Translations under genes and position numbers: made by a program
The notes under the pieces: model-generated
The model's input: the letters and a program-made list of their open reading frames with translations, nothing else
Told to the model about the DNA's origin: nothing
The model's database searches: none
Assembly (NCBI GenBank): GCA_032358255.1
Contig: JAULBX010016415.1
Location: 1 to 64,000, forward strand
DNA: 64,000 bases
Source of the DNA: Heterotrichella gracilis
Lineage: Eukaryota > Sar > Xanthophyceae > Tribonematales > Xanthonemataceae
Direction: 5' to 3'
Shown here: in pieces, positions 10,504-63,994 of the stretch
How positions within the stretch are numbered: position 1 is the stretch's first letter
How the letters are laid out: every line of letters begins with the position of its first letter

Positions 10504-13500
10504 CTATGGCCGTGGCGCGGTGGCTGGTGTGGCCAAGTGTCGTGGGGGGTTGGTGTCTGTGGCGGGTGTGGGAGGGTTGGGCGCCTGCTCTGCCAGGACC
10601 TTCTGGCTCTCGTCATAGTACTGCGGGAAGGGCAGGGGGGGGGCATGCAGGTCAGCCATCGCATAGGATGCAGCATCAGTGTATGCAAATATAGCCCTGA
10701 CTTTGTGCAGCATCTGCCAGGTATCGCAGCATCTACCAGTACCAAATCGGACAGGATGAGGCTGTACATACCAGATAGTGCCAACCCCTGTCCACCCACC
10801 CACTTGCAGCACGCCACATGCCCAGCAAGCGTACATCCCCCTCTTCCCCCCCGTCACACACAGCAAGCCCTTGCAACACCCTCCACCGCGCACCCACCTG
10901 GTTGGGGTGATTGATCCCGGTGTCGCAGCAGCGCCCGTGCGCCCCCTCAAACGTCAGCCCGCACGCCACCTGGTAGTGCCCCCCCTTGGCCTTTGCGACC
11001 GCATCATCCAGCGCGCGGGGCGCCAGCCTCATCCTGCCCAGTGCCGCGCGCAGCTGGTCCTCCCGGAAGGTCTTGTAGGGGCAGCCGTGGTGCTCGCCCT
11101 GCGAGAGGGGTGTTAGCGTTCAGTGCCTGGAGTTTAGAATTTAGGGTATTGGGAGGTGTAGGGTCCTGGGTGCAGGTTCCTGTAGCTGCTTGCCCTGCGG
11201 GAGAAGACAGGGTTTAGAGCTTTGAGCTTAGCGCACCCACCCGCCCCTGGGAATTAGAATTTAGGGTTTGGGGGAGGTTGAGTGGAGGGACAATTGCCTC
11301 AAAGTTTCCATGACTACGCATTTGGGTCTAGGGCTGAGGTTCTAGGGTGTAGGGTCTTGTGCACGCACCGCCCCTGGGACCGACGACACAATCTTGATGC
11401 AGGAGTAGGGCGTCCAGTCGCTTCGCTTGCCCTCCTTGCCGTAGTTGTAGCGTATGCCATACGCATACTCCTTCTCAAACTTCTCGGCAGTTACTGCGCC
11501 GGCAAACTCGGCCCGCCAGAAGCGCATGGCCTCCTCCACTGGCAGGCCGATGCCCTGCGGGGTAGGGGAGGGGAGTGATGAGGGTGGGTGGGTGGGTGCG
11601 TGGCTGGTGTCGCGGTACCTATGGCATGCAGCGGCATGCGGAGTGGTTGGTGGACTGGCCGGGGCCAGACCAGCACGTGCCAAGCAGCCACCACCCAATA
11701 TCTGCGTATCCCTCCCTCCTAAACCTTCCCAACCTCCCCTTGCACCCTCCCAACCCCCCACCTCGCACCTCCACCTCCCATCGCATCGAACAGCCCCACA
11801 TTGGCCCCCACATGCTGGGACCCTTCCCACTCCACAGGGACAAAAATGGAACCCAAACAAACCCAATTGGATGCCTTCCTACCACTTCACACATGCACAC
11901 ACCCAGAATCCGCCTCAAGCCCACCCTTGAATTGAGCACCCACCCCACCCACCCCCACCTTCAAGAACAGCCCAAACTGCATGCGCGCCGCGTGGCGCAG
12001 GTGGTGTGTTGCGTGCAGCTGGCTATACATGTGGCTCATGCACAGCGGGAAGCTGCGCGAGGCCAGTGCGGGGATCTGGGCAGCGGTGACGGCGGAGCGG
12101 TTGGCACCCGCGTCTGCGCCATAGTCGGTGCCGAGGTACCTGGAGGGAGGGTGTGGGTGTGGGTGTGGGTGTGGGTGTGGGTGTGGGTGTGGGTGTGGGT
12201 GTGGGTGTGGGTGTGGGTGTGGGTGGGGCTTTCATGTGGGGTGGGTATTGGGGGCAGCCAGCATGGCGGAGAGGATGACCAGGCATGCACAAGACCTTGC
12301 AGCTCAGCACCAAAACTGCTGTGCACTGGGGTGCTTCAGATTGCCTCTCCCCATCTAAGCATGCGTTTCATGTCCGTGCCGCCAGTCAGGATCAACCCCT
12401 CCTGAAAACCCTAGGGAAGCCTCCGTCACACCCAGGAAAATCTTCACTCCTGTCCATCCTGGTATATGCGCTCAGCAACATAGGCGTCAGCCTGTGCCAT
12501 CTGCCTCTGCAGGCTACCCAGTCCACTTGCGTGCCATCAGCACCAATCTCCAAAACCCTACAGAAAACCCTAGAGAGACCTCCACCAGCAAACCACCCCA
12601 CCCGGCCACCCTCAACCACTGGTGATGGGCATTACTATCTTTTACATCATCACAAAACCGTGCGCTGAGTGACTCCACGATTGGCGTGAGCCTGTCCGTC
12701 TCCTGCCCCGCCAGCTGGGCGCTCCACTTGCGCGAGGTGGGCACCAACCCCCAGAACCCTAAGAAACCCTAGAGAGTTCTCCACCACCCCCGCAGCAAAT
12801 CCCTCTATCACTCTGCCACCCCCAACCATCAATGACGGGCATTGTCACCGTACCGTGCGCTGAGCGACTCCACTATTGGCGTGAGCCTGTCCGCCTCCTG
12901 CCCCGCCAGCTGCGCGCTCCACTTGCGCGAGGTGAGCGCCAGGCCGCGGGACAGGCTTGCCCTGAAGTGGCCCATGACCAGCGATGCGATGTCCTCCCTC
13001 GCCACGTATGCGCTCCCCTTGCGCACCAGCACCTTGCGGGAGCCAACCAGGTCGGAGACCTGCTGGAAAGGGACCTGCGGAAACAACATTAATTTACTTA
13101 TTGAACAGTGGCTTCAATTTATTTTATTTGTATTTATTTTCATTTGTATCCCTTCAAATTTCAATTTTCCTTGATTTTGGCTCAAATGGTGAGGCCCAGA
13201 GATGCTAAAATGGGAGTGCCTGGGCCCGTGTTTCAAGGGAGTTGAGACGTACCATACACGCAAAATAATGTATGCAAAGACAGTCCCCCAAACCCTTTGC
13301 ACGATGAGCTCCCGCCCAGCCCACCCACCTTGTAGAAGTCCTTCGCCCCCCCGTTTCGCACCGCCACCGCCCCCTGGTAGTCCCCCTTGGCCGCCTGCAC
13401 CAGCGCCAGCTCCTCGCGCACCTCATCAAGCTCATCCCCACTGATGGGGCGGTAGGGAAGGTTGTGGCGCTCCATGAAGCGCACCTGGGCAGGGGAGTAT

Positions 13501-15081
13501 GAAGGGTTAGGGTAATGGTATTAGGGTAATGCAGGTAATGCTGTTAGGTTGTGGGGCTCCATGCACCGGTCCTGGGCAGGGGAGCATTACGGATTAGGGT
13601 AATGATGTTAGGGTGTGGCGCTCCATGAAGGGAACCTGGGGCTTACATGGTGTAGGGTGTTGGAAGGTAAAGGTGAGGGCAATGGATGGTAGGGTATTGG
13701 AAATTTTAGGGTTTCGAAGTTGGATAGATGAAAAGCCGGTAGGGATTGGTGAGGGTTTTGGGAAAGCTGTCAGGGCTTTCTTAAAGAGAAGGGTGCTGGA
13801 GTGAGGTTACTGAGGCATTAGCTGTATACACTATCCCCGGCCCCATCCACCGCGTGAGCGGCCTTGCGCTACAACCCCTCCCACCAGGGCCCCCTCCCTC
13901 CCCCCCCCTCCCCACATCACGACCACCACACACACACACCTTTTCTGCGCTGCTCTCCCCCTGGAACCTTGCCCTGAACAGCTCGCACTCCTGCTGTATG
14001 AGCCAGCGCCGCAGCTCGTCTGTGCGGCAGTACGCCAGGCGCAGCACGTGGTGGGACACTGCGTCCTTCCAGGCACTGGCCTCGCGGGTGGGCTCCTGGG
14101 AAGGAGAGGGGTCAGGTGGGGGTTGGCCAGGATTTTGGACCGGGAATGTTTGGTGAGGATCTTGAGCCTTGTTCCACTTTCAGAAGTGGCGTAAGGCAAG
14201 TTAGGAGCTGGGCGGCGTGGTTTGTGCAAGGGTGACTGCCCAGATGACACATGCCGCATGACCGCAGGTAAGCAAATATCTGGGAGATTGGGTCCGGTGA
14301 GAAAGGGCAAGGGCCTCTCCTGCTAGCAGGTTATGCTGTTCAGGTGCGTGTGTTGGGCTGTGGACAGTGACGGTGCGGCGTAACACTCGTCTGCGCTCTA
14401 CAACAACTGCAGTGTTGGACAAGGGGTAGGACGGGTCCATTATAAGTTGCGCACCTTCATGTGCTTGTCAATCTTCTCCTGGATGAGGGCCTGTGGAGGG
14501 GTGGGGGCGATAAGGGTGAACGGTGTTGACGGTGTGCAACAGGGGTGGTGGGCAAGGTGGTGCGTGCTATGACAGCTGTGGGGGGATGGTGTGCATTGGT
14601 GTCGTGATTGCGGTGGTTGATTTCAGGCTGGGTTGTGCAGGATTGCAGCTGAGGGTATGGCAAGTAGTGCGCAGTACCACCCACACGTTGTGTACTTCTG
14701 TACCCCTGCCACGTACCAGCATCTCGTCAGGCTTCTTGCCTCTTGCCCTGGCATCCTCAATTGCTTTCAACACTGCACCGGAAAAAACCCATCAGGAGCA
14801 GGATTGCAAGTATTGCACCCCCCCATCACTGGCCACTGTACACATCCATATTGCAAGATGAGCAAGGCATGGAGAGGATGCCAGCTGCCCTCACCTTGCA
14901 GCCTGTCGAGGGCAAACTGCTCAAAGTCTTCTATGACCACCTCCCCCGTTGGAGGCTCATCATACATCGTCAGGACAGACCCCCTGCCAGCCTTCTTTTC
15001 CGATGCTGGGGGTGCATTCTGTTTTGCACCACCGGTAATCGCTGCCTTGCTAAGCCACCCCGTGCTCTCTTTGGCAGCCAT
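10504..15081 (-). CDS. PRIM2: DNA primase large subunit
   Basis: Ten exons in phase: 15081-14895, 14772-14717, 14490-14455, 14095-13940, 13484-13329, 13074-12854, 12139-11959, 11554-11369, 11098-10898 and 10620-10504 (TAG); 498 residues, close to the usual length. The N-terminal half has the primase-large signature ([32 protein letters not shown]). The C-terminal domain has the four iron-sulfur cysteines: C304 (SFPLCMSH), C383 (WTPYSCIKI), C399 (EHHGCPYK) and C439 (HYQVACGL). It also carries [17 protein letters not shown] and [14 protein letters not shown]. The protein pairs with the small primase subunit and polymerase alpha to make RNA primers in the nucleus. It ends in a Pro/Thr-rich tail of about 30 residues. 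Several introns contain copies of neighbouring exon edges. Start: first ATG of an open exon with no competing upstream frame. Confidence 0.95.
11228..11385 (-). repeat. Partial copy of primase exon 8 edge in the next intron
   Basis: The exon 8 donor side (GCACGCACCGCCCCTGGGAC on the plus strand, 11361-11380) has a degenerate relative at about 11230-11250 (GCGCACCCACCCGCCCCTGG). The intron between also repeats a TTAGAATTTAGGGT segment (11137-11150 and 11256-11268). Confidence 0.5.
12151..12236. repeat. (GTGTGG)n hexanucleotide array in primase intron 6
   Basis: About 14 uninterrupted copies of a six-base unit, immediately beyond the exon 7 acceptor. It gives long spurious open frames on both strands. 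Its strand bias (G/T versus C/A) makes the pre-mRNA a long CCACAC tract ahead of the acceptor. Confidence 0.9.
12420..12940 (-). repeat. Tandem ~195-bp repeat made of primase exon 6 end plus intron
   Basis: The last 85 or so bases of exon 6 and its donor (12853-12940) recur nearly unchanged at 12658-12745 and in decayed form around 12465-12545. The spacing is about 195 bases each time. The intron parts between the copies also match (AACCCTAGAGAG, CCACC and ATGGGCATT blocks). The copies lie inside intron 6 and are not part of the inferred protein. Confidence 0.85.
13455..13645 (-). repeat. Triplicated primase exon 5 start with acceptor
   Basis: The exon 5 acceptor region (13460-13500, GGCGCTCCATGAAGCGCACC then TGGGCAGGGGAG on plus) recurs at about 13548-13595 and 13610-13640. 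Copies are separated by TTAGGGTAATG-type stretches. All extra copies lie in intron 4. Confidence 0.8.
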
Positions 15082-16360
15082 CTTTCCCAGGTAGCGGGGA
15101 AGATGAGTATTGAGAGTAGCCTAGCTTGCCGAGCCTTATCGTGCCATGGGTTTGAGGTGGGTGCCCAAAAAGTGCCACAGGTGGGTGGAATGGGGGGGGG
15201 TGCCACCAGGCTTTTGCTGCTCGTGCGAAGAGACGCGTACGCGTAAAGGAATACCGTGTAAGAGAAAGGAAATGGGTTTGTAACGAAGGCGAAAAACCAG
15301 GGGTTTCAACACAGTGCACGAAGTGCAGGTTGTTCCAATTATTGGTGGGAAGGTTCAAAAACGAAGCTTGAGACAGTGGATGCGAAAACCGTTTCCCTGG
15401 CGAAGACGTTGGCTACTTTTTGACCTTGTAAAGCTGCCCACTCATCAGATAGTGCAGCGTTCCGGCCTCTGCCGATAGAGTGTCTGTCGCGCGAGGCATA
15501 TTTGAAATGGGGCCCAATGCATGCACATGAACCCCCCTTCAATTGCCAACAATCAAGGAAAGAAATGAAGGGGGCAAATTTATATTTTATTAATATATAA
15601 TTTTCCGGGATAGGCCAGGCAAGCTGCTCTAGGGTTTAGGGTAACCCCATAAGGCTTGATGTGGCATCACATTCTTGCACTGCTTTGCTGCAGTGACACC
15701 TTTTGGTTAACGGGCTTCACTGAAAAGGTCCATGGATGCTGCAACGCTGCAGCGCGAGCAGCCCCATAAGCAGGGCTGCCGCAGCACATGTTCAACGTTT
15801 TCCCTGCCAATCCCACCTACCTATAGAACTGCAAACCACACTGTGCTTCTCGTCGTGTATACTTCCAACAACAAAACGCTGCATGCAAGTTGTTGACATT
15901 GGCACCCACCGCATTGTTTGACACTGGCTTAAATGGGTCAGCTTGGCTCTTCATTGCTGCACAGCGCAGTGAGCGGTATACCGTTCAAATTGGACAGGAT
16001 ACCGAGCTTACCCTAACAAGGTGAAACACCTTGAACGGGAACGCGGTTGGTGGGCATCTACCGTAAAACAGTCCTCGGAATATTACCCTATTGTGGCAGC
16101 AACAACAAAAAAACTGCCACGCCTTGTACCAGCAGTATACGGGTAGGTAGCTATCAACCCAGTAGTACGCAGTAGGCCATTCTATTGCACTGACGCAATT
16201 CTGCAGGAGGCCCTTTGTCAATTTAGAAAAACAACAATAAAGTCCACATGACCCTTTCAACACACACAATGCCTGGCCGCTCGCTGCCCCCCCTGCTACA
16301 CCAGGTTTATGGATCCTACTCAGCCCCCCCCAGCCATACACACACGCGCGTCCCCCCCCG
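15082..16360. other. Primase 5' flank and PIP kinase 3' flank
   Basis: Presumed promoter of primase at left and 3' untranslated region of the kinase at right. The stretch near 15580-15620 is A/T-rich and followed by AGGGTTTAGGGTAACCC. No gene was recognised. Confidence 0.4.
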
Positions 16361-19300
16361 TTACGCCTGCTGCACCTCGCCCCCCTTGGCCACAAACACG
16401 CGCCGCATGAACCCCCTGAACCTGTCTGCATAGGTGACGGGGTCGGTGACTGAGATGGCGTAGGGGTCGTGCACCGCTGACTTGAGCAGGTGCTCTACCT
16501 TCTTCAGCAGTCGGTACTCCTGCGGGTGGGGAGGAGGGAGGGGTCAGGGGGGGTGATCAGGGGGAGTTGTGTGCATCTGTGAGACTTTGATCAGCTACAC
16601 ATGCAAATGGACCGAAATTTATACAGCAAGGATCCTACTCAAAAACCCTGGCCAGGCCGCAACACCTGCAGGTAAAAATGCCCCCAGAAACAGCAGCAAC
16701 AGCATACCCAAACCCGAGCCAGACCCTAGCTACACTCTGCACTCACCTGCCGAAAATCGATGACGCCAAAGTGCAGCAGAAATACCCTACCAAAACCCTA
16801 GCCAAACCTTCGCCAGATCCTAGCCAAGCTCTCCACGCGCCTTCGCCAAACCCTAACTAGGCCCTCCCCCCACCTGCAGGAAGTCGATGATTCCAAAGTA
16901 CAGCAGCACAGGCTCCTGCGGCCCCTCCCCTGACAGGGGGAGTGCGATAGCGGGGGTTTCTGAGCCAAGGAGCGGTTCTGGGGTGGGGCTAGGGAGGGAG
17001 CGCCTGCGCCTCAGGCTTGTCGCAGTGGCGGGGGTGCGGGTGGGGTGGGGGAGGGAGGCGTGTGGGGGCCTTTCCGAGAAGAAGGTGGGGGGTGCGTCCA
17101 CGGGTGGTGGTGGGGTGATGGACCTGGGAGAGGGGAAGAAACTAAGGAAATCCATGCAGGCAGGAGTGTGTAATGGGGCCGGATATGCCATGCGTGCTTA
17201 TCGGCAAATGCCAGATTTTGTCTGCCATGCAAATTACAAGCGAATGCCTCTCACTGCCATGCGGATCACTGCAATGCCGTGCTTGCAAGTTCAAACCCCC
17301 CAGCAGCAGCACCAACCCACCCGTGCCGCATGGCCGCCTGATTCCCCTCCCCTCCCGATGCCCCTGGCTCCCCCCCTTGATCCAGCCAGTCTGGTCGTGC
17401 CACATGGCGCAGGGAGCGCACGCGCTTGGGCACAGCCAGGGGGGCGGGGAGGGGGCCGGAGGGGGCGGGGGAGAGGGACTCGGGGGGCGGTGGAGCCGCA
17501 TCTGTGGTGGCAGAAAAGAGAGTAAAAGGTACTGGTGGTGTCAGGGACAGAGACAGGTTTCAGCGATGGTGATAGGGGTCAATTTTAAATTTATGATCGT
17601 CACAGGGTTGACAATTTGTAGCATTTTTATGCAGCCATGTGCATTACAGCAACCAGTACAATTGGGTGTGATCGCAAACCCTGGAGACAACCGCACCGTC
17701 CACCCAGTACCATCACGTGATACACTTTGCGTTTCCAATCCATTTTGTGATGCGCGTCGTCTCCCCCCTCACCTGGCATCCCCTCCCCTCCCCTCGGCCG
17801 CTCCAAAATGATACTCTCCCCCTCCTCATCCGTGGCCCCCACCTCCCCCTCCCGCGCCATCAGCCGCAGCATGCTGTGCACGCTCTTGGCAACTGACAGC
17901 CTGGCAAGACCCGGCCACTGCTGGTCCAGAACACCCTCGGTGGCGTCCGAGTAGGGTCCCTCCCCTGGCTCGGCAGGGGTGGTGGTGGAGGGGGCGGGGA
18001 GGGGGGGCCGAGGGGCGTCGGTGTCAGTCATGTTGGTGTCGCTGCCTGTGGGGGAGGGGGGGCAGGAAGCATGGTGGAGAAACGAGGAGAAGGATGGGTT
18101 TGGCTGGGGATATTGAGAAAAAAGACATAGATTAATTGACATTGCGCGCCGGGCTGCTTCTTTGGCGGGATTGCTGGCACCCATGACAACAAGTAGGTGA
18201 CCATACCAGATACTGCACGCATCTCTGCATTGCAGGCAGATGCAAATTGCGTCATGCAAAGCATACGCCGTTAAGGATCCTCACCCTCTGTTACATCGAA
18301 ATCCAGCGACCGCCTCTGCCGCTGCCGCCGCGGGCTGCTGCTCCCCCCTTGGCCCCCTGCCGCCGTGAGGTCCTGCTGATACACCCACTTGGCGCGCTGC
18401 GTGGATGAGCCACGGTGCGAGCTCACGGTGGTGATGCGCCGCTGGCTGCGGGAAGGGTCGCCGTCGCCTCCTGGCGAGACTGCACACATGCGAGCACAAT
18501 GCCGCTCAGGGTTGCAGGACTTTATTTTTTTATTTTTTTTTATGCATGCCTCGTGTGGATGGGGTGCAGCGCAGTGTGTTAAATTTGTTTTGGTACTTCA
18601 TTGCATGTTCCCAATGCGCGTAGGAAGCATTTACTAACAGCGGTCACACGCCATGCGCTCCTGCCATCCCCAAGCCGCTGTCAGATGCCATACCCATGGG
18701 CAACATGCGCGGCACATACACACTCACCTTCAAACGATGTGCGGCTGTGGGCCCCCCCCTCCTGCTGCAACCGCAAAGACCTCGTACTCGTCACCTGCCC
18801 GTGACCCTGACCCTGACCCTGTCCCTGTCCCACATCATCCTCGGAGGTGAGGTCTGTGTCGCTGGCTGCGTCGCTGAAGGTTTCAATGGTGCCGGGCTCG
18901 GCCTGGATGGGGAAGGAGTGGGGGGTATAGGGCAGAGATGCACAGGTTCTATGGTAGTGGTGTGTAGGAAAGGGGTAACTGAGTATGAATCGCCCTTGCT
19001 CCTGTTGTGTGTCATAAATGTGCAGTATGTGCAGCGAATCGCCTCCATCGAATGTCTGGGGAAGTGGGGGCAATTGAGTGCCATGAGGTGGGTGTGAGCA
19101 ATGGCTTTCAAAGGGCTTTTGTGAGGATGTACGCCCTTCCTGGCAGGTGGCGGAACACAACTAGCTCGCATACATTTTGTAAAGCACGGATTGCAAAATT
19201 GTCAATGATGTGCCTCCCCACCCCACCTGCACATTTGGCGGCGGCAGCCATTTTCCGTTCCCCCATTTCACAAAGTGCACCCCCAGCAGCAGCGAGTAGT

Positions 19301-22300
19301 CCATCACATGGAGCGCCTCAAGCAGCCGGCAGTCAGCCTCAATCTGCAGGAAAGGGGGGGAGGAAGTGGGGGGAGGGGGATACAGTGCTGCACAGCGCAG
19401 CTAAGGCAGTCAGCATAATATGCATTGTCTGTGGGTGGGTAAAAGTGGGTGCAGTGGCGCAACCTTCCACACCCTTCAGGCGCCAGCTTGGAGGTTTTGC
19501 ACACGCATTAAGGCTGGCTAGGGTATTCCAATGCTTGAGGAACCTTCAGCTGTCCTGCAACGCACTATCTGCATATTGTACCTGGCCCATGACGCACCCA
19601 TGCTTTGCAGGCTCGACCACCGTCCTGAGGTCAACATACCATTTGCAAGTATGCTACTATAGTAAACATCAATTTTAATATTATTATTGCGCTCGTTTAG
19701 CGTTTACGGTTTAGGATTTAGGGTAACAGCATCCATGTACCTGGCCCATGATGCGCGCGTGCTCCACCGGCTCCACCACCATCTGCAGGTCCAGGTCAAG
19801 GTCCTTGAGGACGGCGTTGGGGTTGGCTGCCCGCTCCCCCGCTGTTCGCTTGTACGTGCTCCCCTTGAGGTCGTACTTGCGGTGCAGGCGGGTGTCGGTG
19901 GGGAACACGTTGCCCATAACGACAAAGCGGACCTGGGACCACAAAGAATCAGGTTTGGTTCACATGAACACAAAACATCAAAGCAAGGGCCACACATGTT
20001 CCAACGTGACTGCATGGTTGCAGATTGGCAGCTGCAACAGATTGGTCCTGCGATCACACATGATTGAAAGACGCCTTGCATGGTCCTGCTAAATGTGACC
20101 CTAAATTGCATTGAACAACATTGCAACGAACCAACACTGGTAATTCAAAATAACTTCATTGGAGGGAATTACATGTGCACGCGTAGTTGTACACCTGATC
20201 GCAATGCATGCGACAATCAACTACATTTCCTTGTCAAATTGCCAGACAATCAAATCAGCACCTCCTACCCACCCACCCACCCACCTGGCGTCCGTTGCTG
20301 GGGGTGATCCGGTGTATGCCATAGAAGCGCGTGAGGAGGGTGGAGGGGTAGGCAGACACGTGCTTGAAGTACCTGAAGTAAGAATGGGGGAGACCGGTGA
20401 GGTGGATAGAGGACAAGGGGACATGACTTGGGTTATTGGCAGCGGTGGCACCAGGTGCTCACATACCCACAAGCCTACGCCAGTTTTTACCAAGCCTGTT
20501 TAAACATGTACCAACCCTGCACCCTCCCAAAACCCTTCTCTAGGGATTCCCTCGAGCGCTCCTCATAACAACCACTTCTTTGCCCAAACCTACACCCCAC
20601 CCTCTTAAACCCTCCCATGAATTTCCCTGTATCGCTTACAGCATAGATCTTGTTGGGTTACTGACTAAGGTTGGGGGTTCAGCCTACTTTAGCACCAGAT
20701 CCAGCCTGCACCCCCACAAAACCCTCCCCTAGGGTACCTACTTTGGCACCAGGTCCAGCAGCACGTGCATCTCCTCCTTGCGCACACTCTTCAGCATGAA
20801 GCGGTCGTCGCCAGACAGGAAAAACACGCACCCCGACTTGCCGGGGGAGGGGAGCAGCCGCAGGGACTCGTCGCCTGGACAAGGGGGTAAGAAGAATGAT
20901 ATGAGGATATCAATCAAGGCAAACTATGGCGGAGACATGTTCCGGCAGAATCCCCTGGACAGTCTCTAGGCCTCAGGGCGCCACAACACCCTAACCCTAC
21001 ACCCTAACCCTACAGTTGCCTTCTCAGCTCTGAGTGACAGAGAAAGCCCATGTCTATGTCTTTTTAGGGTGAAGATTACAGTAGGGACTAAGGTTTGACC
21101 CCCCACATGTGAGCGACAGCAGGTAGTCCACGTCATCTACGCCTGTAAGGGTTTAAGGGTTTAAGTATATAGGGTCAAGGTTCAGGGTCCACCCCCCACC
21201 CGTGAGCGACAGCAGGTAGTCCACGTCATCTATGTCCCACTTCTGCCGCAGGCGCCTGAACACCGCCGGGCAGTAATCCTTCCAGCCCCAGGAGGGCAAA
21301 TCGCTGGTGGAAGGGAAGCTCTGGGCAACCTGCAAGGGGGTGGGGGGGGTGGCAGGGTGAAACCGGAGGTAAGCAGGGATACATGGGCCTCCATTGAATG
21401 GCTGGCTTGAACAGTGATGCTGTTTCCGGCTGTGCGCTGTGTGCCGTGCTTGGTCAGGCCTGGCCATGGGGCTGGCATGGCACAGAACCACTCACCACGG
21501 CCTCCCCATGCGCACTGAACGCCCAGGTCTACCCTGGTTAGTTTCAATGCAGTTTGACACAGCAAAGTTTGACCCAGCATCCAAAACCCTAAACTAGGGT
21601 CCTACCCACCTGCTTTTTCATGTCCCCCTCAGTGCAGCTTCCCTCAGTCGCCCCTGCCCCCGGCCCGCCCCCCACCACCCCCGACTGCGCGATGCTGAAC
21701 CTGATGCCCATCTGCAGCTGGCGCATGAGCTCGTAGCTGCCGTGCCCCTTGTACACCGTCTCGCCTGGCCGAGGGGGGCGGTAGCGCTCCTGGGAACAGG
21801 GGAGGGAACAGCTGTGTCACACTGTCGTGAAATTCCCCCTGGGGCCATGATGCGCAGAACAAAAAAACCATCTCCTGTATGCACATGTAGGATGCCGCCA
21901 TGGCAAGGTACGCATTTATCCGGTGGTCACTAGCACTCGAGACATGACCCTGCACTGCATTTGCGAATGGGATTGCAACAACAAATGGAGGGTGGCACCC
22001 GCCACCACTGCCTGCTCCCCACCCCAACTGCTATCCCCAGTTACCTTTTCCTGCTGCTTCCTCTTTTTCCTCCCCTTCTTGTCCATCTTCTTCCTCACAT
22101 CCATGTCAGCCACACGCAGCACAGCCTCGCGCACCAGCGCCCCCCCGCTGTACTCCCGCAGGAACAACACCTGGGCGCGACCGTTATCGGGGGCGGCGGG
22201 CCTGAAGGGTGGGCGGGTTGATGATTATGGGGATGATTGTTTGCTTGGGAGTGAGCTTCTATTCTCACTCCCAACCAAAAGAGCTTGGGGGTAACGGAGT

Positions 22301-30108: not shown

Positions 30109-32712
30109 CGGAGGATGAGATCCCCCGCTGCGGCTACAGAGGCAGCAGAGCAGGAGGAGGAGGAAGGTGGGGGCAAATGGTGCACCATCGCCATACATAG
30201 GACCTGCTTGAGCAGGGTTCAACAGCAAGGGCACTTCTGTACCCAATACAGCAGCAGAGACTGTGCACTGGGGCAGGCCTCGTGGATACCCTTTAGGGTT
30301 GCACACCGGTGTTGTGCTTGATTCCAACCCCAGTTAGTGCTTAACAACCAGTCACCAAAACCCAGCCCTACCCCCCTTTTCTCCTCCCTCACCAACATCT
30401 AGCTGCCTTTCCCCCATGCAGAGCTTGAGTCCCTGTCCGATGAGTACACCGACGTGATGCAGGCGCGCATGGGCGGTGCGCTCACCTACCGCCACGAGGA
30501 CGGCATCAACTGGAACACCATCATGGACGACGTCATTGTTGGGTCATGCCTGCAGGTGGCGGAGGATGCAGACAAGTGCGTCCGAAATAGTCATTTATAT
30601 TGGTGGATTAATATGGATCCAGGTCCATATCCGTGCTCGTCAGTCCTGGCTAGTGGCCTGCCTAGTGGCCCCATGTTCAAAGTAACACCCTCCTGTGCGT
30701 CATACACACTACCCCATGCCTGGCCCCCCCTGCCTGCTGTGTACGCTCTTGGGCTTACTTATACCCGCACCCACCTCTGTGCAGGGTGGCCGCCGCTGGC
30801 GTGAAGACCGTGTTTTGCCTGCAGCAGAACAGCGACATGGAGTACTTCTCACTGGACATCGCACCCATTCAGGAGAGGTGGGGAGGGGGGGGGGGAGATG
30901 CAAGCAGTTGGAACTCGCTGTTGGGTTTTGAATCGCGGGTACAGGTCGAGAATGCAGTGGCGATTTGGTCCATTTCATTGGAAATTTTGCGTTTCAACCT
31001 GCGCTAGCTACAGGGAGTGAGGCACTCAAATGCATGCTATGCACCATGCTACACGTCCTCGAATTGATATAGACACCTCCAGCGGCCACTAACCACCGCA
31101 TGTGGCCCACCCGCCCCCAGATGCAAGGAGCTCGGCATCGCCCACGTGCGCTTCCCCATCAACGACTTTGACCCCTTCAACCTGCGCCTGCGCCTGGCCC
31201 AGGCGGTGGCAGCGCTCAAGGCAGCGCACGAGGCAAACGGGGGCAAGGTCTACATTCACTGCACAGCAGGTGGGTGGTAGCGGGGGAGCAATGGCAAATC
31301 CAGGCTGGAATAGGCCGTAGTGCATACCGTGGCATGGTGTCAGGCAGCATCACAGGGGTAAAAGTGCAGCAGGCGCTGAACAACAGGTCCACTTTCACCT
31401 TGTGGAATAAAAGGGTATGCATTTCATTTGTCGGAGCGCCAAGCCAATCAGCCATCTCATCTGCCGGTTGTCAAGCGGGAAACAGTTCCCACTCCCATAC
31501 CACTTACCTACCCATCCCCGTTGCAGGCATGGGCCGCGCCCCCGCTGCAGCGCTGGCCTACATGTGGTGGTGCCTGGGAGTGCCGACCCTAGACGAGGCC
31601 TTTGAAACCCTACGCGCCGCGCGGCCCTGCAACCCCAAGCTGAGTGCTGTGCGCGCCGCTGTTGCTGACATGCTGTATGGCGGCACGCCCACGCCCGCAA
31701 GCATCGCGGTGTGGCGGCCGGGTGGCGCCAAAACCTTCCAGGTGAGGGTAGTGGGTATGTGAAGGGGAGGGGGAGGGATGGTGGTGGGAAATGGGCTCAT
31801 GGTGGATACATATTACCTTGGTATGATACCAAGCACATGGACCATGTGCATGAGCAACATGTCTCAGGGTAGCTCTCTGGCTAGCAATGGCATGCATGAG
31901 GGTTGTGGCAACAAGGGCAATGTGTCTATCTGCTCATGGGCTACCAGCCACTCCATCCGCCTGCTACCTCACCCATGAAGTCCCACCCGCACCCGCATCG
32001 CATCCCCATCAGATACCCAGCGCCCCCCACTGACCCCCCCTTTGCTACCCTCAGGTTGCTGGGCTGGATATCGGGTGGGGCCAGCAGCTGGACCTTGCAT
32101 ATGACCCCATGACAGGGCGCCACGTGTTGACCCGCGACCTGCCCCCCGGCCGCTTCCCCTACAAGCTTGTGGTGGATGGGGTGTGGACGTACTCCGCGGA
32201 CCACCCCACCTTCATGGATGGCGACAACATCAACAACTACGTGGATGTAGGTGGAGGCACTGCAAATAAGGGTGTAGGGTTTTTCAGGCTTAGACCAATC
32301 GTAAACCCAAACCCTAAATCCTGAACCTGAACAGCTACCTGGATGTATATGGAAGCACTGCTGTGCATAGCATTTGCTCGACCTGAGCCCGTGTGTTAGT
32401 GGGTGGTGATGGTGCCTGGGTATGCAACGTGTGGGCATTTGATGCCCTCATTGCCAGCATGTGCGCATTTGATGCCCTTTTACAGCATGCAACGGCTGTA
32501 CCCTGGGCAGCTAGCTCCATAGGAACCCTAACTAGCACCCCCATCCCAACCCCATCCCCATCCCAACCCCCATATCTCCCCCACAGGTAATCGGTGACGG
32601 CGACCCCACCAAGGTTGCTGCGCGCACACGCCTTGAGCAGCCAAACGCCACGCTGACAGCTGGAGAGAGGGAGAGGATTAACGCGCTGCTGCTGGAAATG
32701 GAGGCAAACTAG
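30109..32712 (+). CDS. SEX4: Phosphoglucan phosphatase SEX4 (transit-peptide exon unresolved)
   Basis: Seven exons in phase: 30109-30166, 30422-30575, 30785-30877, 31121-31269, 31527-31741, 32055-32246 and 32587-32712 (TAG); the acceptor of the first is inferred and upstream sequence must add a plastid transit peptide. Order of parts: an acidic linker; the family-specific YTDVMQARMGGALTYRHEDG; the dual-specificity phosphatase domain with the general-acid region FPINDFDPFN and the CX5R active site HCTAGMGR; then a CBM48 starch-binding domain (GLDIGWGQ, RFPYKLVVDGVWTY, DNINNYVDV) and the C-terminal helix (GERERINALLLEME) that packs on the phosphatase. It removes phosphate from glucose C6 and C3 of starch to let amylases degrade it. 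The active site reads CTAGMGR, as in plant SEX4. Intron 6 contains a copy of the exon 6 end. Confidence 0.93.
32234..32361 (+). repeat. 98-bp copy of SEX4 exon 6 end in intron 6
   Basis: CAACTACGTGGATGTAGGTG plus GAGGCACTGC (32234-32263) recurs at 32332-32361 with five changes. Between the two lies GTAAACCCAAACCCTAAATC. In the copy the donor GTAGGT has become GTATAT. Confidence 0.85.
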
Positions 32713-34000
32713 GGCCATTCCATTTCTGCCTGCAGGGCATTCACCCACGGGAGGCGGGACTTGAGTGCATGTCTTTGGCAATGGGGGCAATGGAGTGTTA
32801 GGGGTTAAGCTGGGTGGGCTGGCGGAAAGGGGTGTATTATTGAAGCAAGTCATCGTGAACCTAGGCCGTGGGTGATTCAGAATCAGCAGCTCTGGGCCAG
32901 TTAGAAGGTTGTGCTGAACTATGTGGGGTGGGCTTCATGTACTGCACTTGAGCTTTGGTAGGTGCAATTGTTTTGGCACCTAAGTGTGTCATAGTACTAA
33001 CACAGCAGTCCTGCAGCCATTTCAGCAGTCATATTTGCAATTGACTCTGGCAAATCACAGCGTTACAAATCAATTTCAGATGCCCAAGTGGTATTACTAG
33101 CACAGCCGTGGTGTGCCGCACAAAGCTCTGTTTCTGTTATCGCTGTTTGATCCAGCGTCTGGCAATGGGTGACGCTTTGGTGGAGTGTCTGTGTACGTAC
33201 CTAATTAACAGAAAATAGTGCATGCCAGATACTAGATTTTTATTCAGTGCTGGTGGCAGTTCTGTGGTTTTTATAGGATAGTCAGTCTCTCTATGCAGTG
33301 GGTATTCTGCATTGGTGCTGCACATCCACTATGGGTAAGGTTAGGGGTGGGAATGTCCTGGCACTGGCATTTCTGGGATAGTTTCCTGCAAAGCAGAGCC
33401 AGGGTTAGGGGTGGGAATGTCCTGGCACTGGCATTTCTGGGATAGTTTCCTGCAAAGCAGAGCCCAGCCAATAACTCTAGTGGTAGTCTTTTGGGGTGCA
33501 CTCTGTAGATTCGGAATGCGAATGCAGAGCCTGGGGACGGCAGTGCGTGCAGACTTTTCATGTTTGGCATTGCAATGGTCGTGATTAATGCATGTATGCT
33601 TTCTGTATGACCATGAGCAACAACCCTTACCTAGGGACCTCCTAGAAAAGGCAAGAATTGTTTGGCATAGCACTATAAAACCTGCTTATAGCAAGCCTCC
33701 CTGGCCTAGATCACCTCCTCTTCCATTGACTGGTATCACCCCCTTGGACCACAGCTGCAGCTGTCGTCGGACAAGTTTAAATATTGAAGTGGCAGCGACC
33801 TCGCAATATATTGGATAGCCAGCCACAGCCCAGTTCACTAATAGCTAGTTCATCACACTACGAGCTTCTGCTGTCGCTGCATTGCAACCTGGTAGCGTTG
33901 GACCTCGTCCTTGAGTCACACCCACTGACTATATCCACTACCCACGCCCTGCAACCCACAACGAAACTGTGGTTAAACGCGCCGGTGAATACACACAGTT
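32713..34000. other. Spacer between SEX4 and BTB gene
   Basis: Presumed SEX4 3' untranslated region and BTB promoter. Contains the 64-bp tandem repeat below; nothing else was recognised. Confidence 0.4.
33339..33466. repeat. Perfect 64-bp tandem duplication
   Basis: Two head-to-tail copies (33339-33402 and 33403-33466) that read the same throughout, starting GGTTAGGGGTGGGAATGTCC. The junction again carries a GGGTTAGGG motif. Identity implies a recent event. Confidence 0.95.
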
Positions 34001-39535: not shown

Positions 39536-42500
39536 TCAGTTGACAGGCACCCTTGCTACAACCCCCGACACAATGGTCCCATTGCTGCTCACATTGAACA
39601 CCCCCAGGCCCCCCACATTGCTGTACAGCCAGCAGTTGGGTCCCCACAGGGTCCACGCGCCACACAGTGGCTGCTGCACGCATGCGCAATAGCAGGCAGT
39701 GGGGGAGGTGGTGGCTGCAAGGGGGGTGAAGGTTGCCAGGCCAGGGGAGGTGAAGGGCTGCTGCCAGATGGCGTCTACCAAGGTGGTGATGTTGGTGGGG
39801 CAGCCTGCGGGGAGGGCAGGGGAGGTGTCATCAGAGAACGAGAAATAGTATTTTGCCTTAGCCTATAAGAAACAAAGACAAACAAAATCAATGTGCGCAG
39901 AGTCCCCATCGATTACCGTATCTGGTGGGGTGATCAGCATGGGTACAAAGCGAGGGCATGTGCAATGTTGGGGCTTATGGTTTGTTAGTTGGGAAGGGAA
40001 AACGAGAGGAGATGACTGGGGATGAAGCGCACCTGGCGATGGTGGTGGGGGGCCGGGTGGTGGGGGGCGCGGTGGTGGTGATGGCCGAGGCTTGGGGGAT
40101 GGGCGCGGGGGCGGGGGCGATGGGCGTGGGGGCGGGGGGTTGGGTGGTGGGCGTGGCGGTGGTGGTGATGGGCGTGGGGGTGGTGGGCTGGGGGATGGTG
40201 GTGGTGGTGGTTTTGGTGGGCGAGGGGGGGGCGATGGCCGAGGGGGTGGCCTTGGTCGAGGGGGTGGACGTGGAGATGGTGGGGGTGTTGGTGGGGGTGG
40301 CATGGGCAACAGGATGGTAATCTTGCCCAGCATTGTGCCCCAATTTGCTGAAATGCCAGCTGTTGCCGCCATCTCCGCGCTCACATAAAAGGCCCCGTTT
40401 TCATCGAGTGTGGCTGACGAGTAGTCCCCCTGGCGCACTGGATCGCTGTCAGACTGCACCATGTGACAATGATGTAAGGGGATGAATCCCTTGTTATGGA
40501 TGATGCTAGTGGGCATGTGAGTGATGATGGTAGAGCATTCCCAGTAAAGTGATTTATTGTGGGCATGTGACTGACAAGATGTGAGTGATGATGGTAGAGC
40601 ACTCCAAATCAAGTGATGATGGCACTGAGATCATGAGCGTATAGTAATAATAATAACAATACACTAATCGCATAAAACAAATACGCTATATTACATACCG
40701 TATAATATAAATATATACATTACATTACAAAAATACTATGTATAAAACATCTGTACCCACCGCCGTCAGGCCTTCACTGGCTCCTGGCCAGTACAGGCTG
40801 TTTGCTGGTGGTTTGGTGGTGGTGAGGGTGGTGGCCACTGGGGTCATCATGATGTTTGGTCCAACCATGCTGCCAACGATCACTCCGTTGCCTGCTGTGT
40901 CTGCCATTATCCGAGCTGACAGGACGCTGGCGGAGGTGGAGATGCCATGGGGTTTGCCTGGGCTCCACAGGCTGTGAAGGGGGGGGGAAATGGGGGTTGG
41001 GGTGGGAGGGATTGATGAGATTCAGTGTTGTCCTGTGCATATACACCGGCCCACAGCATGGTGCATGCGAGTTCGATCCAAGGTAGGGGTGTAAACTGAG
41101 CCATTGCACTGTACATCAAGATACAGCAAATGGCAAATTTGAAATGGCACCATCACGGAACCAGAGAGTGTGCACCTTGGGATTGCATGAGGGATATGAT
41201 CAATGCCAATGAGCAATAGGACGTTTATCAGACGAACGGCTTCCTAAATGTATGGTGTTTGGTAGGGTAGAGGGGGCAAAGGGGGTAGGTAAGCCTAGGG
41301 CCACGTGGGCTGACCTACTCCAGCAGGACCTCAAGTCGCGTGGGATCAATAGATGGTTCAAACAGTGCCAGGAAAGAGCTGCGTGGCGCCGCATGTGCAA
41401 GACTGACTGTTAATCTGGCTATTTTGCTGGAATGCATGTAACTAACTAACTAACTAACAATGAGCAATTCGGGACTACTCTGATTTATCAAACCACCGAG
41501 AAGGGGTGGGGATTTCTGAAGGGTTTTTACTGCACCCACGCACCCTTCCTGCACCACCGTGAGGCCGACCTCCCCTGCCTGTGACACCGAGGGCGTAGTG
41601 ATGTAGTAGTGCGCCCCTTGCACCCTGCTAGCAACCTGGTCCAGGGTAACTGCAACAGCCACATGAGAACATGAGAACAAGGCAGTTGCAAGCACCATGA
41701 AAAACCCTTGTAGGTGGTTGCCAGCACCGGGAGGTTATGCAGTGAATTTTCACACACAAGTTCACAATTTCAACTGACTGCGAGGTTTCCGTATCTGACA
41801 TGCAATGTTTAAAACAAAGGTGAATGATGCCAGCCATTGTGAGGTGGAAATCACAAAGGATTCCGTGCAAATTAGTGTATTTCCAGAGCTATTAAACCAG
41901 CAAGTGTGATGATTAACCCTCTCACTCCCACAAGCACAGTTTGTATTCGGTGGCCTGCGGCTTCTGAACCGCGCGGAACCGATTTGCGATTTCTGCGGGT
42001 CGCTAGGGTCTCGTCTGGGAGTGAGAGGGTTACTACCACCAGGTGCAGCATTCATGACACTCAGCACAGGCATGTAGGATGGGGGCAACACAGGCACCGT
42101 GTGCACCCTGTGGTCCCCAGCACTGTAACTGTATCACTGGAAATCCTTGGGATTATTCCCGTCCAATCCCAGTTTAGAATTTTGAAGATTAGGATTCTTC
42201 CCGTCCAATCCCAGGTTAGAATTTAGAAGATTCTTCCTGTGCAATCCCAGCGCAAATCACCTGCCCACAGCGCATCCCCGGACCACACAAGCGGGCCTCC
42301 AAACCCCTCGGAGTTGTCAGAAGCCACCTTGGCGGGGCATGTCTTGGGACTCTTGAGCGGGTTGGGGTTGGGGCAGCCTTGGTACACGTAATCGAATGTG
42401 ATGTAATTGTAGTTGTCGACCAGCTGCTGGGATTGCAGCAGCAGTGGCGGGTCCCCGCCCTCAAAGGCTGAGGTGTTGACGGCAGCCCAAATGACCAAGA

Positions 42501-45500
42501 AACCCTGCAAGAGGAAATAATCCACTTATAAATAATGTTATATAATTTTTGTTGTCAAAATTAGTGATTATTTAATCATCATGATATAAAGTGAATGCTA
42601 TGGGAGGTGTTGCCGGCAGCCCAAATAACCAAAGAACCCCTGCACAAGGAATAATAATATTATGTATTTCTTAAAATACAAGAACAAAATGCAATTTATA
42701 CGGTAACTTGCAAGTGAATGCTATGGGAGGAGCAATTACCTGACGTTAATGAGCAAGCAAATGTATGCTTAGAAGCTGAGCAACCCAGAAAATAGACTGT
42801 GATAACATCAACCCTACCCACATGTGCATACCCTGTCCCGACCCCATGTGCCCCACCTGAGACCGGGTCATGATGACCTGTGCCCCTCCCCCGTACGCGG
42901 TGTCCATATAATCCGCCCCTGCAGCCACCACTGCAGGTTGGCAGTGGTAGAAGTAGCTGGTTTTGCTGCCCAGGTACCATCTGGTCAGGCAAGAAACGCA
43001 GGTGATTAGTTGGTTCCCTTGTATTTTTTGTTCGGGCTGCAATACATGCGATGCAAGAGACTGGTACAAGCAATGCAAGTACAGGGCTGATTGGCGCATA
43101 GGGACTGACTGCTACTCTGGCTGTACTGCTGGAACGCATTGAAGGGAGGGGTACGAGGGTGAAAAGGGAATGATGCCCACTGGAAGTCTCGGGCTTTCAA
43201 GTTCTGGAAAAGGTGTTCACTCTTGTCACAGCTGCAGCACCAATTTGCATGCCGGCAGCATTTGGAAATTCGAATATGTATTTGAATTTGAACTTGTATT
43301 CGCAGCAGCATGAGCACCTTAGCAGCGGCATGAGTGAACGGCAAACCCAAAACGAGAAATCACATATGGATTGATTTTATCTTATTGTCGGATAAGATGT
43401 GTATCCATGTATCCCCAGTGCATCCAGAGGTGGGCGAGCAACATTGGCCTTTCCTGCCCAAAACAAGCTTAAAGCCAGGAGGACTTTAATATATCACCCT
43501 TGATGTATTATAATCCTCCTGTTCAAGCGGCTATGAATGACATTCATGATCACCAATTTATCAAAGTCAGCCACATTTCATGACCCACATCCACACCCGC
43601 CGCTGCGTCAAAACCCTACATGTAGGTCACAGGAAGATTCCCCTGGATGAGGTCCGATTTCCTGAATCCCCACATCGCGCTCCCCACAAACCCCGCGGAG
43701 TTGGAGAAGTTGCTGAACTGGTTGGTGGTGACCCTGCAGAAATGGGAACCCCTTAGGGTGCTGCCGCAGGCTGGAAACCCTAGGGCACAACCATGGCACT
43801 ACACAATAATTCTTTAAGTACCATAAATTAATACAGTGACCAGCTTGATTGGAAGATTGAGTGAGATTTTTGAATATTGTTATATGTTTTTGCTTGTAGT
43901 TCAATACTTGTTTTATAATGCATCGTGTTCCATGCCATTCTACATGACCCTCTCCTTTAGAGCCTGCTGCGCATGCCAAAACTGTCCACGAAAACTTGGA
44001 ATCCAAGCATGTGCCCATGGTCATTGACAGGGGTATACTAATTTCACTGACTTTGTATAGTTAGTACAGATAGTATACCCCTGGCATTGATGTGAGAGCC
44101 AAGCACGTGCTCAGTCGAGAATCCCATGTTAGGGTTTCAGGGTAGCGCCCGGGAGCACGCGACGCACCACACTGCATGCTTGTCGACACCCAAGCCAGGG
44201 AAATCCGCAAAGCACCCGGTGGGCACATCACACTGGAAGTAGCTTTGATCCTTCATCTCCGCAGGAACGTCATAGACGTTGTACTTGCCAAAGGGGCTTG
44301 ACGACTGGCTCACAGCCAGTGCGATCCGGGAGTATGTACTGTTGGTCTTGAATGAGTAGTGGATGTGCACCACGAACCAGCGCTCAGAGGCGTTGTCGTA
44401 CCAGCCTGCGGGGTGTGCCGGGATTTGAGCATTTGCACGTGAAGGGATGCCATAGGTGGCACTGCACCTGGCACATGAATCACGATGCAATCAGATGTGC
44501 TGCAAACCCACGGGGTGCGACTGGTGCGACATGCTGTGCTGCACATACCACATGGTGTGACATGAAGCACTGCACGTCCTGCATGCATGTGATGCAGACT
44601 GAGTGCCCTGGCAGGCAGGGCAAATGGTACACTGCACACATGCGCCAGATCACGTCTGATCAAGTTAGGATGCAGTTCCACACTGCCATTAGGCACTGGA
44701 ATCCCATGCATGCATGTGTTATTGACACAAAGTAGTGATCGCACATCTGGGATCGCTCAAATCCCCGTCCAATCCAAACAGCTTGTATGCTGACACGGCG
44801 GGCCCAACCGCCGTGAGGTTGGAGGTGTAATACACCCTGATCACCTGGAACAGGGAGGAGAACGTCATTTTGAGCGGGGTGTATTTTCATTATGGCATTT
44901 AATGGTTCTGATAATGATGATAATATATGCATTATTCCACACATGCGTGTGCATCCTCACACAATTGTGCACATATGCACCCACACACACATATACACAC
45001 ACATACATGGACCCCCCACCCATGCATGCGTGCACACACACGCATACACAATTCCAAACCCTAAAACTTAAAAACCGCATACACCTACACTGTTGATGGC
45101 CTGCAGCAGGTATCCCCCTCCGCTGCACAGCGCATTGTCTGGCGGTTCCAATCGGTATCCCAGCTGCACCGCGTTGTCATCGGTGTTCAATCCCTGGGAC
45201 CAGCTGGCGATGAATCCCGGGGATGAGGTCGGGGATGAGGTGGCGGTGGAAGTGGAGCCACTGGTCTGTGGGGGTGGGGGTGACGTCAAATGAGAGCGTA
45301 GGATTTGTCAAGGGGACTAGACAACAATTGTTATTTAAATTGAAAAATAAGGGCATGCACATGCAACAAAACGTGCATGCACAGTGACTTGCACTTGTAA
45401 AAAATGGTTTTTTCCAGAAAGGAATGTGCATATACCCCATGCAGAAATGTGCATGCAATTTGCCACCACCCCATTTCCGCCATCGCAACGGGAAAAAGTG

Positions 45501-47568: not shown

Positions 47569-47764
47569 CCAGCTGGTCACCAATGATCACGCACAGCGCT
47601 GTGTTGACCCCACGCGCACAGCTGCTGTTAAATGCACAACTGGTGTTCAGCAATAAGGCAGGCAGGCTCTGGGGGTTCAAGCTGCTTACAGGGTCTTGAC
47701 CCCACACCCAACTACCGTAACTCGCCAAAAATAAATAAATATAAATAGTAAAAAGTTCCATCAA
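47569..47764 (-). CDS. Possible first exon of a small secreted Cys-rich protein
   Basis: A 65-codon exon ending in a good donor (GTAGGT, phase 1). It starts with a signal-peptide-like run (ELFTIYIYLFLASYGSWVWG) followed by CAFNSSCARG and ALCVIIGDQ. Further exons could not be placed in the 0.3 kb before the next recognised feature, and no family was recognised. It may be a relic of a neighbouring duplicated gene. Confidence 0.3.
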
Positions 47765-47795
47765 GGCCTCATGTCCCCAAACACACGCTCACCAG

Positions 47796-63100: not shown

Positions 63101-63994
63101 GTTTCCATAGGGAGGTATCTGCAGATGATATCATCCACACCTATCCATTAACCCTATCGTAACCCCATAAGCCCCACCTGAGACCTGGTCATGATGAACC
63201 CTATCTTAACCCTTCAGGACAGAGAATTATACAATAGGGCTTGGACAGGGTTTAGATGTCCATGTGCCCCACCTCAGTCATGCCTGTGGGGTCCCCACGG
63301 GTCATGATGACCTGTGCCCCTCCCCCGTATGCAGTGTCCATATACTCCGCCCCTGCAGCCACCACTGCGGGCTGGCAGTGATAGAAGTAGCTGGAGTCGG
63401 TGCCAGGGTACCACCTGGGCAGGCGAGAAAGGCCGAGATGAGTTGCTTACTTCATTTTTGTAGGACATGCAGTACAAGGGATTGGAATGAGCAATGCAAG
63501 GACAGAGCTGGTTGGTGCAAGTCGTGCAAGAGTGACTGCTGCTCTGGCTGTACTGCTGGAATGCATGGAAGCAGGGAGTGCGCATGGAAGGGAGGATTAC
63601 GAGGGGGAAAAGGGGATGATGCGCATTGAATGTCTTAGGACTTACAGTTATGGAAAGGTGGTCCTCTCTTGTCACAGCCGCTGCTCTAATTTCATTGTTG
63701 CAAGATTCCAAGCAATAAGGCCTTGGTGCATCTACAGGTGGACTTGCAATGATGGCCCTAACTGCCCCAAACAAGCTTCAAGCAGCAATAAATAATACGC
63801 ATAACCACGTGCACCACCATCCTCACCACCACCATGACCAGCACCAGCACACGCCACTGCCCAATGTACACCCTCACCTGAATATCATGGGAAGGATTCC
63901 CTGGATGAGGTCTGACTTCTTGTATCCCCACACGACGCTCCCCACATACCCCGCATTAGCGTCGGAAATGCTGCTGAACATATTCCCTGTGACC
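60127..63994 (-). CDS. Secreted proline-rich glycoprotein, copy 3 (5' part beyond window)
   Basis: Exons equivalent to 6-12 of copy 1, all in phase: 63994-63878, 63414-63273, 62795-62552, 62184-62071, 61736-61540, 61044-60609 and 60395-60127 (TAA). Exons 1-5 with the signal peptide lie to the right of the window. The ectodomain end (GDYSAATLDENGAFFVSAE, NWGTMLGK), a Pro-rich linker (PPRPRPPP and PPSPSPPPP types) and the C-terminal Cys domain (YCACAQQPLCGAWTLWGPNC) are all intact, so this copy looks functional. Exon 7 is 18 bases longer than in copies 1 and 2 at its 3' end, where a different donor is used after a local duplication. It has an N-glycosylation site (NWSS) in the Cys domain. Confidence 0.82.
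63169..63310 (-). repeat. Duplicated exon 7 end in glycoprotein copy 3
   Basis: GCCCCACCTGAGACCTGGTCATGATGA-like sequence at 63171-63197 is what the exon 7 donor looks like in copies 1 and 2. In copy 3 the exon now ends at a second, altered version (63262-63310), leaving the old donor stranded in the intron, with AACCCTATCTTAACCCTTC between them. Confidence 0.75.

Follow-up and report, generated by a model that had tools for sequence, protein, structure and literature searches.

Exon edges duplicated into adjoining introns, often with telomere-like sequence at the joint, in the alga Heterotrichella gracilis

Introduction

Telomeric repeats inserted during break repair, sometimes together with a duplication of the target, are described in mammals as interstitial telomeric sequences (ITS) at staggered breaks (PMC7215372, PMC2246262). 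In the horse, a simple target duplication attributed to staggered breaks was seen at 3 of 66 telomeric-insertion loci, with two more in combined changes (PMC7215372), and target duplications at telomeric insertions in primates were reported in earlier work cited in PMC2246262. Human ITS are described in the same two papers as absent from exons, with the intronic ones fitting random placement. The present study concerns a 64-kb stretch of the xanthophycean alga Heterotrichella gracilis (contig JAULBX010016415.1, positions 1 to 64,000; hereafter the window), in which introns carry direct copies of the adjoining exon edge. Unlike the mammalian case, direct copies flank 19 of 51 intronic telomeric tracts of at least 14 bp, and exon edges are among the duplicated sequences. 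The window and 250 kb more of the same assembly record a real, patchy process that grows introns by duplications spanning the exon-intron junction, frequently with a telomeric repeat at the joint.

Related scars have been described elsewhere. Small tandem duplications arise from fill-in of 3' overhangs by Pol alpha-primase guided by CST (PMC8355091); they are likewise direct, tens of bases long and formed at breaks with complementary overhangs, and the fill-in complex also serves telomeres, whereas the abstract, introduction and discussion of that paper describe no telomeric spacer, and the mechanism proposed below is read from sequence alone. In the potato RdRp gene, a tandem duplication across an intron-exon boundary supplied new splice sites and made an intron (PMC4974935), which resembles our junction-spanning duplications but concerns intron gain in one gene, whereas here 48 of 444 introns are involved, mainly by growth and often with telomeric spacers. 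Intron gain by staggered-break repair, as treated in a review whose main text has no word beginning with "telomer", also leaves direct repeats, yet these are short and flank a whole new intron, while ours are long and sit at one side of an intron that was already there. Another report concerns direct repeats located at exon-intron borders or close to them (PMC11782384); these have a mean of 11 bp and pair the 5' with the 3' border, in contrast to long copies of one edge in the adjoining intron. As regards telomere motifs, they are rarer in coding sequence and introns of Arabidopsis, though raised in the first two introns, and fall below expectation in rice introns, and telomerase acting at nicks in transcribed DNA was proposed (PMC3022908). 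Judging from titles and the opening of abstracts, we found no paper that connects telomeric repeats with the growth of introns, which does not prove that none exists. Each step of the mechanism considered here is known in mammals; the rate, the focus on junctions and the coupling of both scars appear to be new.

Sequences, gene models and tests

Altogether 314 kb were examined: the window and 25 loci of 10 kb from the same assembly. The sampled contigs were those in a telomere-pattern listing and 11 of the 25 loci come from a single contig, C2, so that the sample is not random. Perfect matches to the telomere 21-mer number 834 in the assembly. Genes were modelled with a home-made two-strand exon/intron hidden Markov model (HMM), self-trained on the same 314 kb, which converged with stable counts on the donor MAG/GTRNG and the acceptor YTGCAG/G (the slash marks the junction) and a median intron of 269 bp in the training set. 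The gene models are supported by Pfam matches in the predicted proteins, including the primase large subunit, a SEX4-like phosphatase, malonyl-CoA decarboxylase and a transporter. Before counting, exons shorter than 45 bp were merged into introns and introns longer than 1200 bp were dropped; a low-complexity filter took out 43 of 184 raw local repeats.

Local repeats in the window were sought by ungapped scoring (+1/-1.5, score at least 17, spacing 30-400), with five locally resampled copies of the window as the null. For the edge test, the outer 60 bp of each exon was aligned to its own intron and a score of 18 or more was taken as a match. The same edges were aligned to ten length-matched other introns each as a control for specificity, and the stretch of exon lying 60-120 bp from the edge served as the core control.

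Copies of exon edges in introns

Exon-edge copies are confirmed as real, far above chance and present beyond the window. Among 444 introns in 26 sequences, 48 were found to hold a direct copy of the outer 60 bp of the adjoining exon, nine of these 48 on both sides. Donor edges (31/430) and acceptor edges (26/436) are both affected, as the initial annotation had held. The same edges matched other introns in only 0.07% (donor) and 0.0% (acceptor) of comparisons, exon cores matched introns in 3/341 and 3/341 cases (6/682 together), and none of the 430 and 436 edges had an inverted copy reaching the cut-off. The affected introns number 5 of 90 in the window and 43 of 354 in the other loci, the strict test missing some window pairs because the gene finder had called the copies as exons.

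In the window itself the scan gave 40 local direct repeats against 0, 1, 1, 2 and 5 in the five resampled copies, and eight of the ten clusters by which the initial annotation had claimed that introns hold copies of adjoining exon edges were among the 40. The pairs concerned, and those discussed below, are as follows.

12657-12746 / 12852-12941, minus strand: primase large subunit (PF04104), 90-bp exon-edge pair, 93% identity, spacing 195
12565-12587 / 12764-12786, minus strand: primase large subunit, further repeat, spacing 199
13459, 13546 and 13598-13610 (span 13459..13640), minus strand: primase, three partial copies of the acceptor-side exon edge (edge 13459-13479, copy 13610-13630)
11200..11400, minus strand: primase, weak pair 11230/11361, under the cut-off with a soft score of 16 (p about 0.003)
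16747..16906, minus strand: PIP-kinase-like gene, donor edge 16874-16906 with intronic copy 16747-16779, 82% identity
19582..19791, minus strand: PIP-kinase-like gene, donor edge 19741-19791 with intronic copy 19582-19632, 75% identity
20683..20759, minus strand: PIP-kinase-like gene, 23-bp pair, 91%, spacing 54, spacer with AAACCCT and TAGGGT
21098..21232, minus strand: PIP-kinase-like gene, donor edge 21202-21232 identical to intronic copy 21109-21139 over 31 bp
32226..32361, plus strand: SEX4-like phosphatase (DSPc and AMPK1_CBM domains), donor-edge pair of 38 bp, 82%, spacing 98
42470..42730, minus strand: proline-rich glycoprotein paralog 1, acceptor edge 42470-42504 with copy 42604-42638, spacing 134 (36 bp, 89%)
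63171..63310, minus strand: proline-rich glycoprotein paralog 3, duplication at the donor side whose functional unit alone holds an insert of ~48 bp, from paralog comparison

The names PIP kinase, for one window gene, and proline-rich glycoprotein, for three window paralogs, come from the initial annotation and we take them to be candidates only. In the primase, the 13459/13546 repeat extends over 69 bp at 84% identity and has a companion pair at 13534/13598. Within the PIP-kinase-like gene, the window scan recovered repeats at 16718/16845 (62 bp, 77%), 19577/19736 (56 bp, 77%) and 21098/21191 (42 bp, 95%, with a telomere-like spacer); the gap of the 16747..16906 pair is similar to the homologous sequence outside the copy, and the spacer of the 19582..19791 pair contains TTTACGGTTTAGGATTTAGGG. 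At 32226..32361 a 17-bp tract of the CCCTAAA type ends 5 bp before the second copy. Two of the pairs, 20683/20737 (score 18.0) and 32226/32324 (20.5), lie near the tail of the null, where resampled copies occasionally match (0, 1, 0, 1 and 5 matches at a score of at least 18; 0, 1, 0, 0 and 3 at 20 or more). The two clusters that stayed below the cut-off, 11230/11361 and 63171/63262, are weak alone; the latter, with a soft score of 13 (p 0.003 against shuffles, 0.027 against window positions), is backed by the paralog comparison.

The copies are distributed in patches, with 29 of 146 introns affected in the C2 loci against 19 of 298 in all others (permutation p 0.0002). They are concentrated in loci L009-L018 (contig C2, 20-390 kb) and in L033 (contig C11), where 6 of 14 introns are affected, and several loci have none. 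A malonyl-CoA decarboxylase gene in L033 (5680-6130) carries an exon edge three times, at spacings of 179 and 177. Near-identical pairs, besides 21098/21191 in the window, occur at 807/898 in L015 and at 8328/8549 in L033. The duplicated exon parts range from about 24 to over 100 bp. Most spacings fall within 85-210 bp, and 72 of the 92 edge pairs have a spacing of 80-220 bp; the distribution looks two-humped, with 36 pairs at 80-120 bp, 2 at 120-140 and 34 at 140-220.

Tandem duplication and the excess at junctions

The gap between junction and copy resembles the homologous sequence beyond the copy in 29 of the 54 cases out of 57 where such a comparison was possible (p <= 0.05 against other introns; 2.7 expected by chance), and in 25 it does not. 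Since these 29 gaps resemble intron sequence lying past the copy, tandem duplication, in many cases with a spacer, is a more fitting description of the process than copying of exon edges. The initial annotation had suggested an intron-growth mechanism acting at junctions and possibly tied to telomere-like repair; growth, the excess at junctions and the telomere tie all stand, while the copying itself has to be recast in these terms.

Uniform tandem duplication with decay was simulated and does not reproduce the position of the copies. At spacings of 80-220 bp there are 72 edge pairs to 17 intron-only pairs, so edge copies are clearly commoner than repeats within introns, whereas the simulations give 0.7-1.1 to 1. 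The edge-to-core ratio is 57:6 (7.5 per tested edge) against about 2.8 simulated, and the exon part has a median of 54 bp against 71-75 bp simulated (Kolmogorov-Smirnov p 5e-5 to 9e-4). The exon-side lengths used in this comparison come from a permissive gapped extension past the copies, in which any over-extension would inflate the observed value rather than shorten it; the intron-side lengths, for which the null is heavy-tailed (99th percentile 75 bp), do not enter the evidence. Compared with the uniform null, junctions thus show a preference of about four- to six-fold, owing either to the mechanism or to selection, for example against longer exon copies.

A donor context repeated at the acceptor with a spacing equal to the intron length, which would be the signature of intron gain, was found at a score of at least 14 in only 3 of 439 introns (0.0 expected); of these, the one in L014 is an edge copy called as an exon, and another lies in L019. 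Gain of whole introns was accordingly dropped as a general explanation, and as a class the events read as growth of existing introns, with a candidate exception in L017 described below.

Telomere-like sequence in the spacers

The claim that the gap often holds telomere-like sequence was borne out by several tests, all of them run on a single data set and hence not independent of one another. The stretch from junction to copy has 43.5 telomere hexamers per kb, whereas matched stretches of unaffected introns have 11.4 per kb, and 0 of 1000 resamples came as high. With no motif preset, the five most enriched hexamers (AAACCC, ACCCTA, AACCCT, TAAACC and CCCTAA) are all telomere rotations. Visibly telomeric short spacers include aAAACCCTAAACCCTAggg in L012, an edge pair, and TTAGGGTTTAGGGTTTAGGGTTTAGGcttt in L018, an intron-only pair. 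Of the 45 pairs with spacers of 12-70 bp, 18 have the tract in the spacer alone, 3 in the homologous outside sequence alone, 3 in both places and 21 in neither; the 18 to 3 asymmetry has a sign-test p of 0.0015. Telomere coverage of the spacer is 36% at 12-30 bp (14 edge pairs) and 35% at 30-45 bp (10 pairs), against 12% and 14% outside. A telomeric tract thus lies between direct copies of the target in a subset of the pairs.

Taken from the side of the tracts, intronic tracts of at least 14 bp on C2 are flanked by direct copies in 13 of 31 cases, compared with 9.1% of random intron positions, and those outside C2 in 6 of 20 cases, compared with 4.4%. The excess is seen both on C2 and elsewhere, hence the telomere link is not only regional, and the tie is supported by position-matched, region-matched and unbiased k-mer controls. 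In the eight loci fetched by a perfect telomere 21-mer, the tract falls in predicted introns and is clearly flanked by direct copies in 3 of 8; in L003 three copies alternate with two telomere tracts. The eight are not all independent, since six lie on C2 and L005 overlaps L006, and the copied stretch in L001 is only putatively exonic. Overall, the share of sequence covered by telomere-like hexamers is 3.5% in introns, 0.9% in exons and 1.8% in predicted intergenic DNA (the last from ~29 kb only), and regional telomere coverage tracks the edge-copy rate (Spearman 0.66, p 0.0002). The commonest intron hexamers, above the telomere ones, are TGCATG (322), CATGCA (275) and GCATGC (262).

Paralogs in the window and a candidate new intron

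Three tandem paralogs occupy 39536-63981 of the window, with compared exons 80-89% identical and introns ~70% identical over aligned bases. They give the duplications a direction, the ancestral empty site being judged only through paralogs within the window. In paralog 1 a unit of about 123-134 bp spans the acceptor, with CCTC common to the breakpoint (a single case, read from the alignment) and an identical 19-bp repeat at 42589/42712 (spacing 123). This junction-spanning duplication, which reads as a full tandem unit and carries no telomere tract, was not found in paralogs 2 and 3. In paralog 3 the insert of ~48 bp, partly telomere-like, is absent from its own second unit and from paralogs 1 and 2.

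On the minus strand of L017 (oriented 4717-4872), a 155-bp stretch consists of exon copy, telomere-like filler, exon copy, filler and exon copy, in two units of about 79 bp. It becomes one intron only after merging, the HMM itself having split it by a 3-bp exon. Without the stretch the exon stays open, as read by eye, and the net change is in frame, which makes it a candidate newly gained intron. Its gene is presumably F-box/LRR-like, a candidate label read from the sequence.

Decay of the copies and fate of the splice sites

Exon and copy differ at 77/851, 77/859 and 140/853 sites of codon positions 1, 2 and 3 (0.09, 0.09 and 0.164). The ratio of mismatch at positions 1-2 to that at position 3 is 0.55, and we estimate ~0.5-0.6 for one neutral beside one constrained copy; the pattern fits a neutrally decaying copy next to a constrained exon. 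An assembly artefact is unlikely, because the copies diverge, in a graded manner, with the codon-phase pattern of neutral decay. The wide range of divergence noted in the initial annotation holds, from identity over 31 bp down to 75% in the pairs listed above, and suggests that the process is continuing.

The same annotation had the splice site included in each copy. This is so for part of them: where the junction could be mapped (26 of 31 donor and 21 of 26 acceptor copies), GT is kept in 20/26 and AG in 13/21, and lost in the remainder. By our estimate, neutral decay alone at this divergence would keep ~83% of the sites; the loss of donor GT is near that expectation and the loss of acceptor AG somewhat above it, and neither points to selection for decoy sites.

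Possible mechanism and its alternatives

The best explanation, to which we give a probability of about 0.55, is that staggered breaks straddling the junction were repaired with duplication of the overhang, often with addition of telomeric repeat. The two strands would be broken or nicked at points some tens of bases apart, across the exon-intron junction, and repair would retain the overhang sequence at either side, giving a short direct duplication; a telomeric repeat would often be placed at the joint. Duplications wholly within exons would be purged by selection, while those straddling a junction would be tolerated, as they leave one splice site intact and turn the surplus exon edge into intron. 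The outcome would be a longer intron with a decoy splice site decaying neutrally, the intronic half of the unit fading fastest. The patch could come from telomerase, and captured telomeric fragments fit as well. Telomerase extending the duplicated end would be expected to place a G-rich tract nearer the left copy and a C-rich one nearer the right; left-to-right counts are 10:9 for G-rich and 7:6 for C-rich tracts, and assignment through telomerase extension was dropped because this strand polarity is absent.

Several observations weigh against staggered-break repair at junctions, the missing polarity among them. As many as 21 of the 45 short-spacer pairs have no 9-bp tract, at least five being exon-exon pairs, and since this is nearly half, plain tandem duplication must also occur. 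At spacers of 70-150 bp (n=36) the contrast is weak, with spacer only in 8, outside only in 2, both in 6 and neither in 20. Intron-only pairs are telomeric too (34% coverage in four pairs with spacers of 30-45 bp), so telomeric spacers are not special to junctions. The telomere-like insert of paralog 3 sits inside the first unit, not at the unit boundary. Moreover, the sample over-represents C2, the contig with most edge copies; some counted pairs belong to one array (L024, 7673 and 7768), so the counts are not fully independent; and the excess at junctions could partly reflect selection or gene-model bias, not the location of breaks.

Perhaps slippage or template switching, producing ordinary local tandem duplications evenly along the gene, is all that is needed, with selection clearing the exons and the telomere-like sequence incidental. 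The likeness of 29 of 54 gaps to the homologous outside sequence, the exclusively direct orientation and the best-resolved case, paralog 1 with its 4-bp homology and no telomere tract, all favour it, but as a full account it under-predicts the edge bias and gives longer exon parts than observed, and it leaves the 18 to 3 placement of tracts in the spacer without a reason; we regard it as possible though doubtful. A different order of events, in which introns held the telomeric tracts first and these, being fragile, led to duplication of the sequence around them, draws on the density of such hexamers in introns, on the regional correlation and on interstitial tracts being known fragile sites (PMC6410037). 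A pre-existing tract would however be expected on both sides, whereas with spacers of 12-70 bp 18 pairs have it in the spacer alone and 3 have it in both places, an argument that is weak at 70-150 bp (8 and 6); on balance this order of events is unlikely.

The remaining alternatives concern the nature of the copies. That they serve as functional exons, duplicated or mutually exclusive and retained for alternative splicing, would suit the presence of both acceptor-like and donor-like ends in some copies and the calling of several copies as exons by the HMM. Nonetheless, positions 1 and 2 mismatch as a neutral copy predicts, the copies are partial exons, and GT is lost in 6/26 and AG in 8/21 mapped copies; the idea was rejected on the codon-position counts, which indicate one neutral copy, and we consider it very improbable. 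Even harder to credit are introner-like mobile elements with long target-site duplications, although the order copy, spacer, copy resembles an insertion flanked by target duplications: the size range of the exon parts is unlike a fixed transposase cut, exon edges do not recur in other introns and the spacers share mainly telomere hexamers. Introners were thus rejected for lack of sharing between introns in the sample, no genome-wide family search having been made.

The question of how introns lengthen and originate has long been asked, yet events that are both young and datable are few. This one genome holds scars of many different ages, including some in conserved genes for enzymes such as primase and malonyl-CoA decarboxylase, with the exon as original sequence, the intronic copy as a neutral clock and the spacer as a record of how the break was repaired. 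Should the telomeric joint be confirmed, it would link telomere maintenance with gene structure, could explain the enrichment of telomere-like motifs in these introns, and would offer a countable rate per intron, comparable between regions and species. That telomeric patching of breaks at exon-intron junctions is a principal driver of intron growth in this lineage, and now and then gives rise to a new intron, is a tentative extension that we rather doubt.

Other repeats in the window

Two perfect repeats were also noted. An array of GGGTGT (12.8 units) occupies 12149-12225, within a predicted primase intron, and a 64-bp tandem duplication (2.0 copies) lies at 33339-33464, in a stretch predicted to be intergenic.

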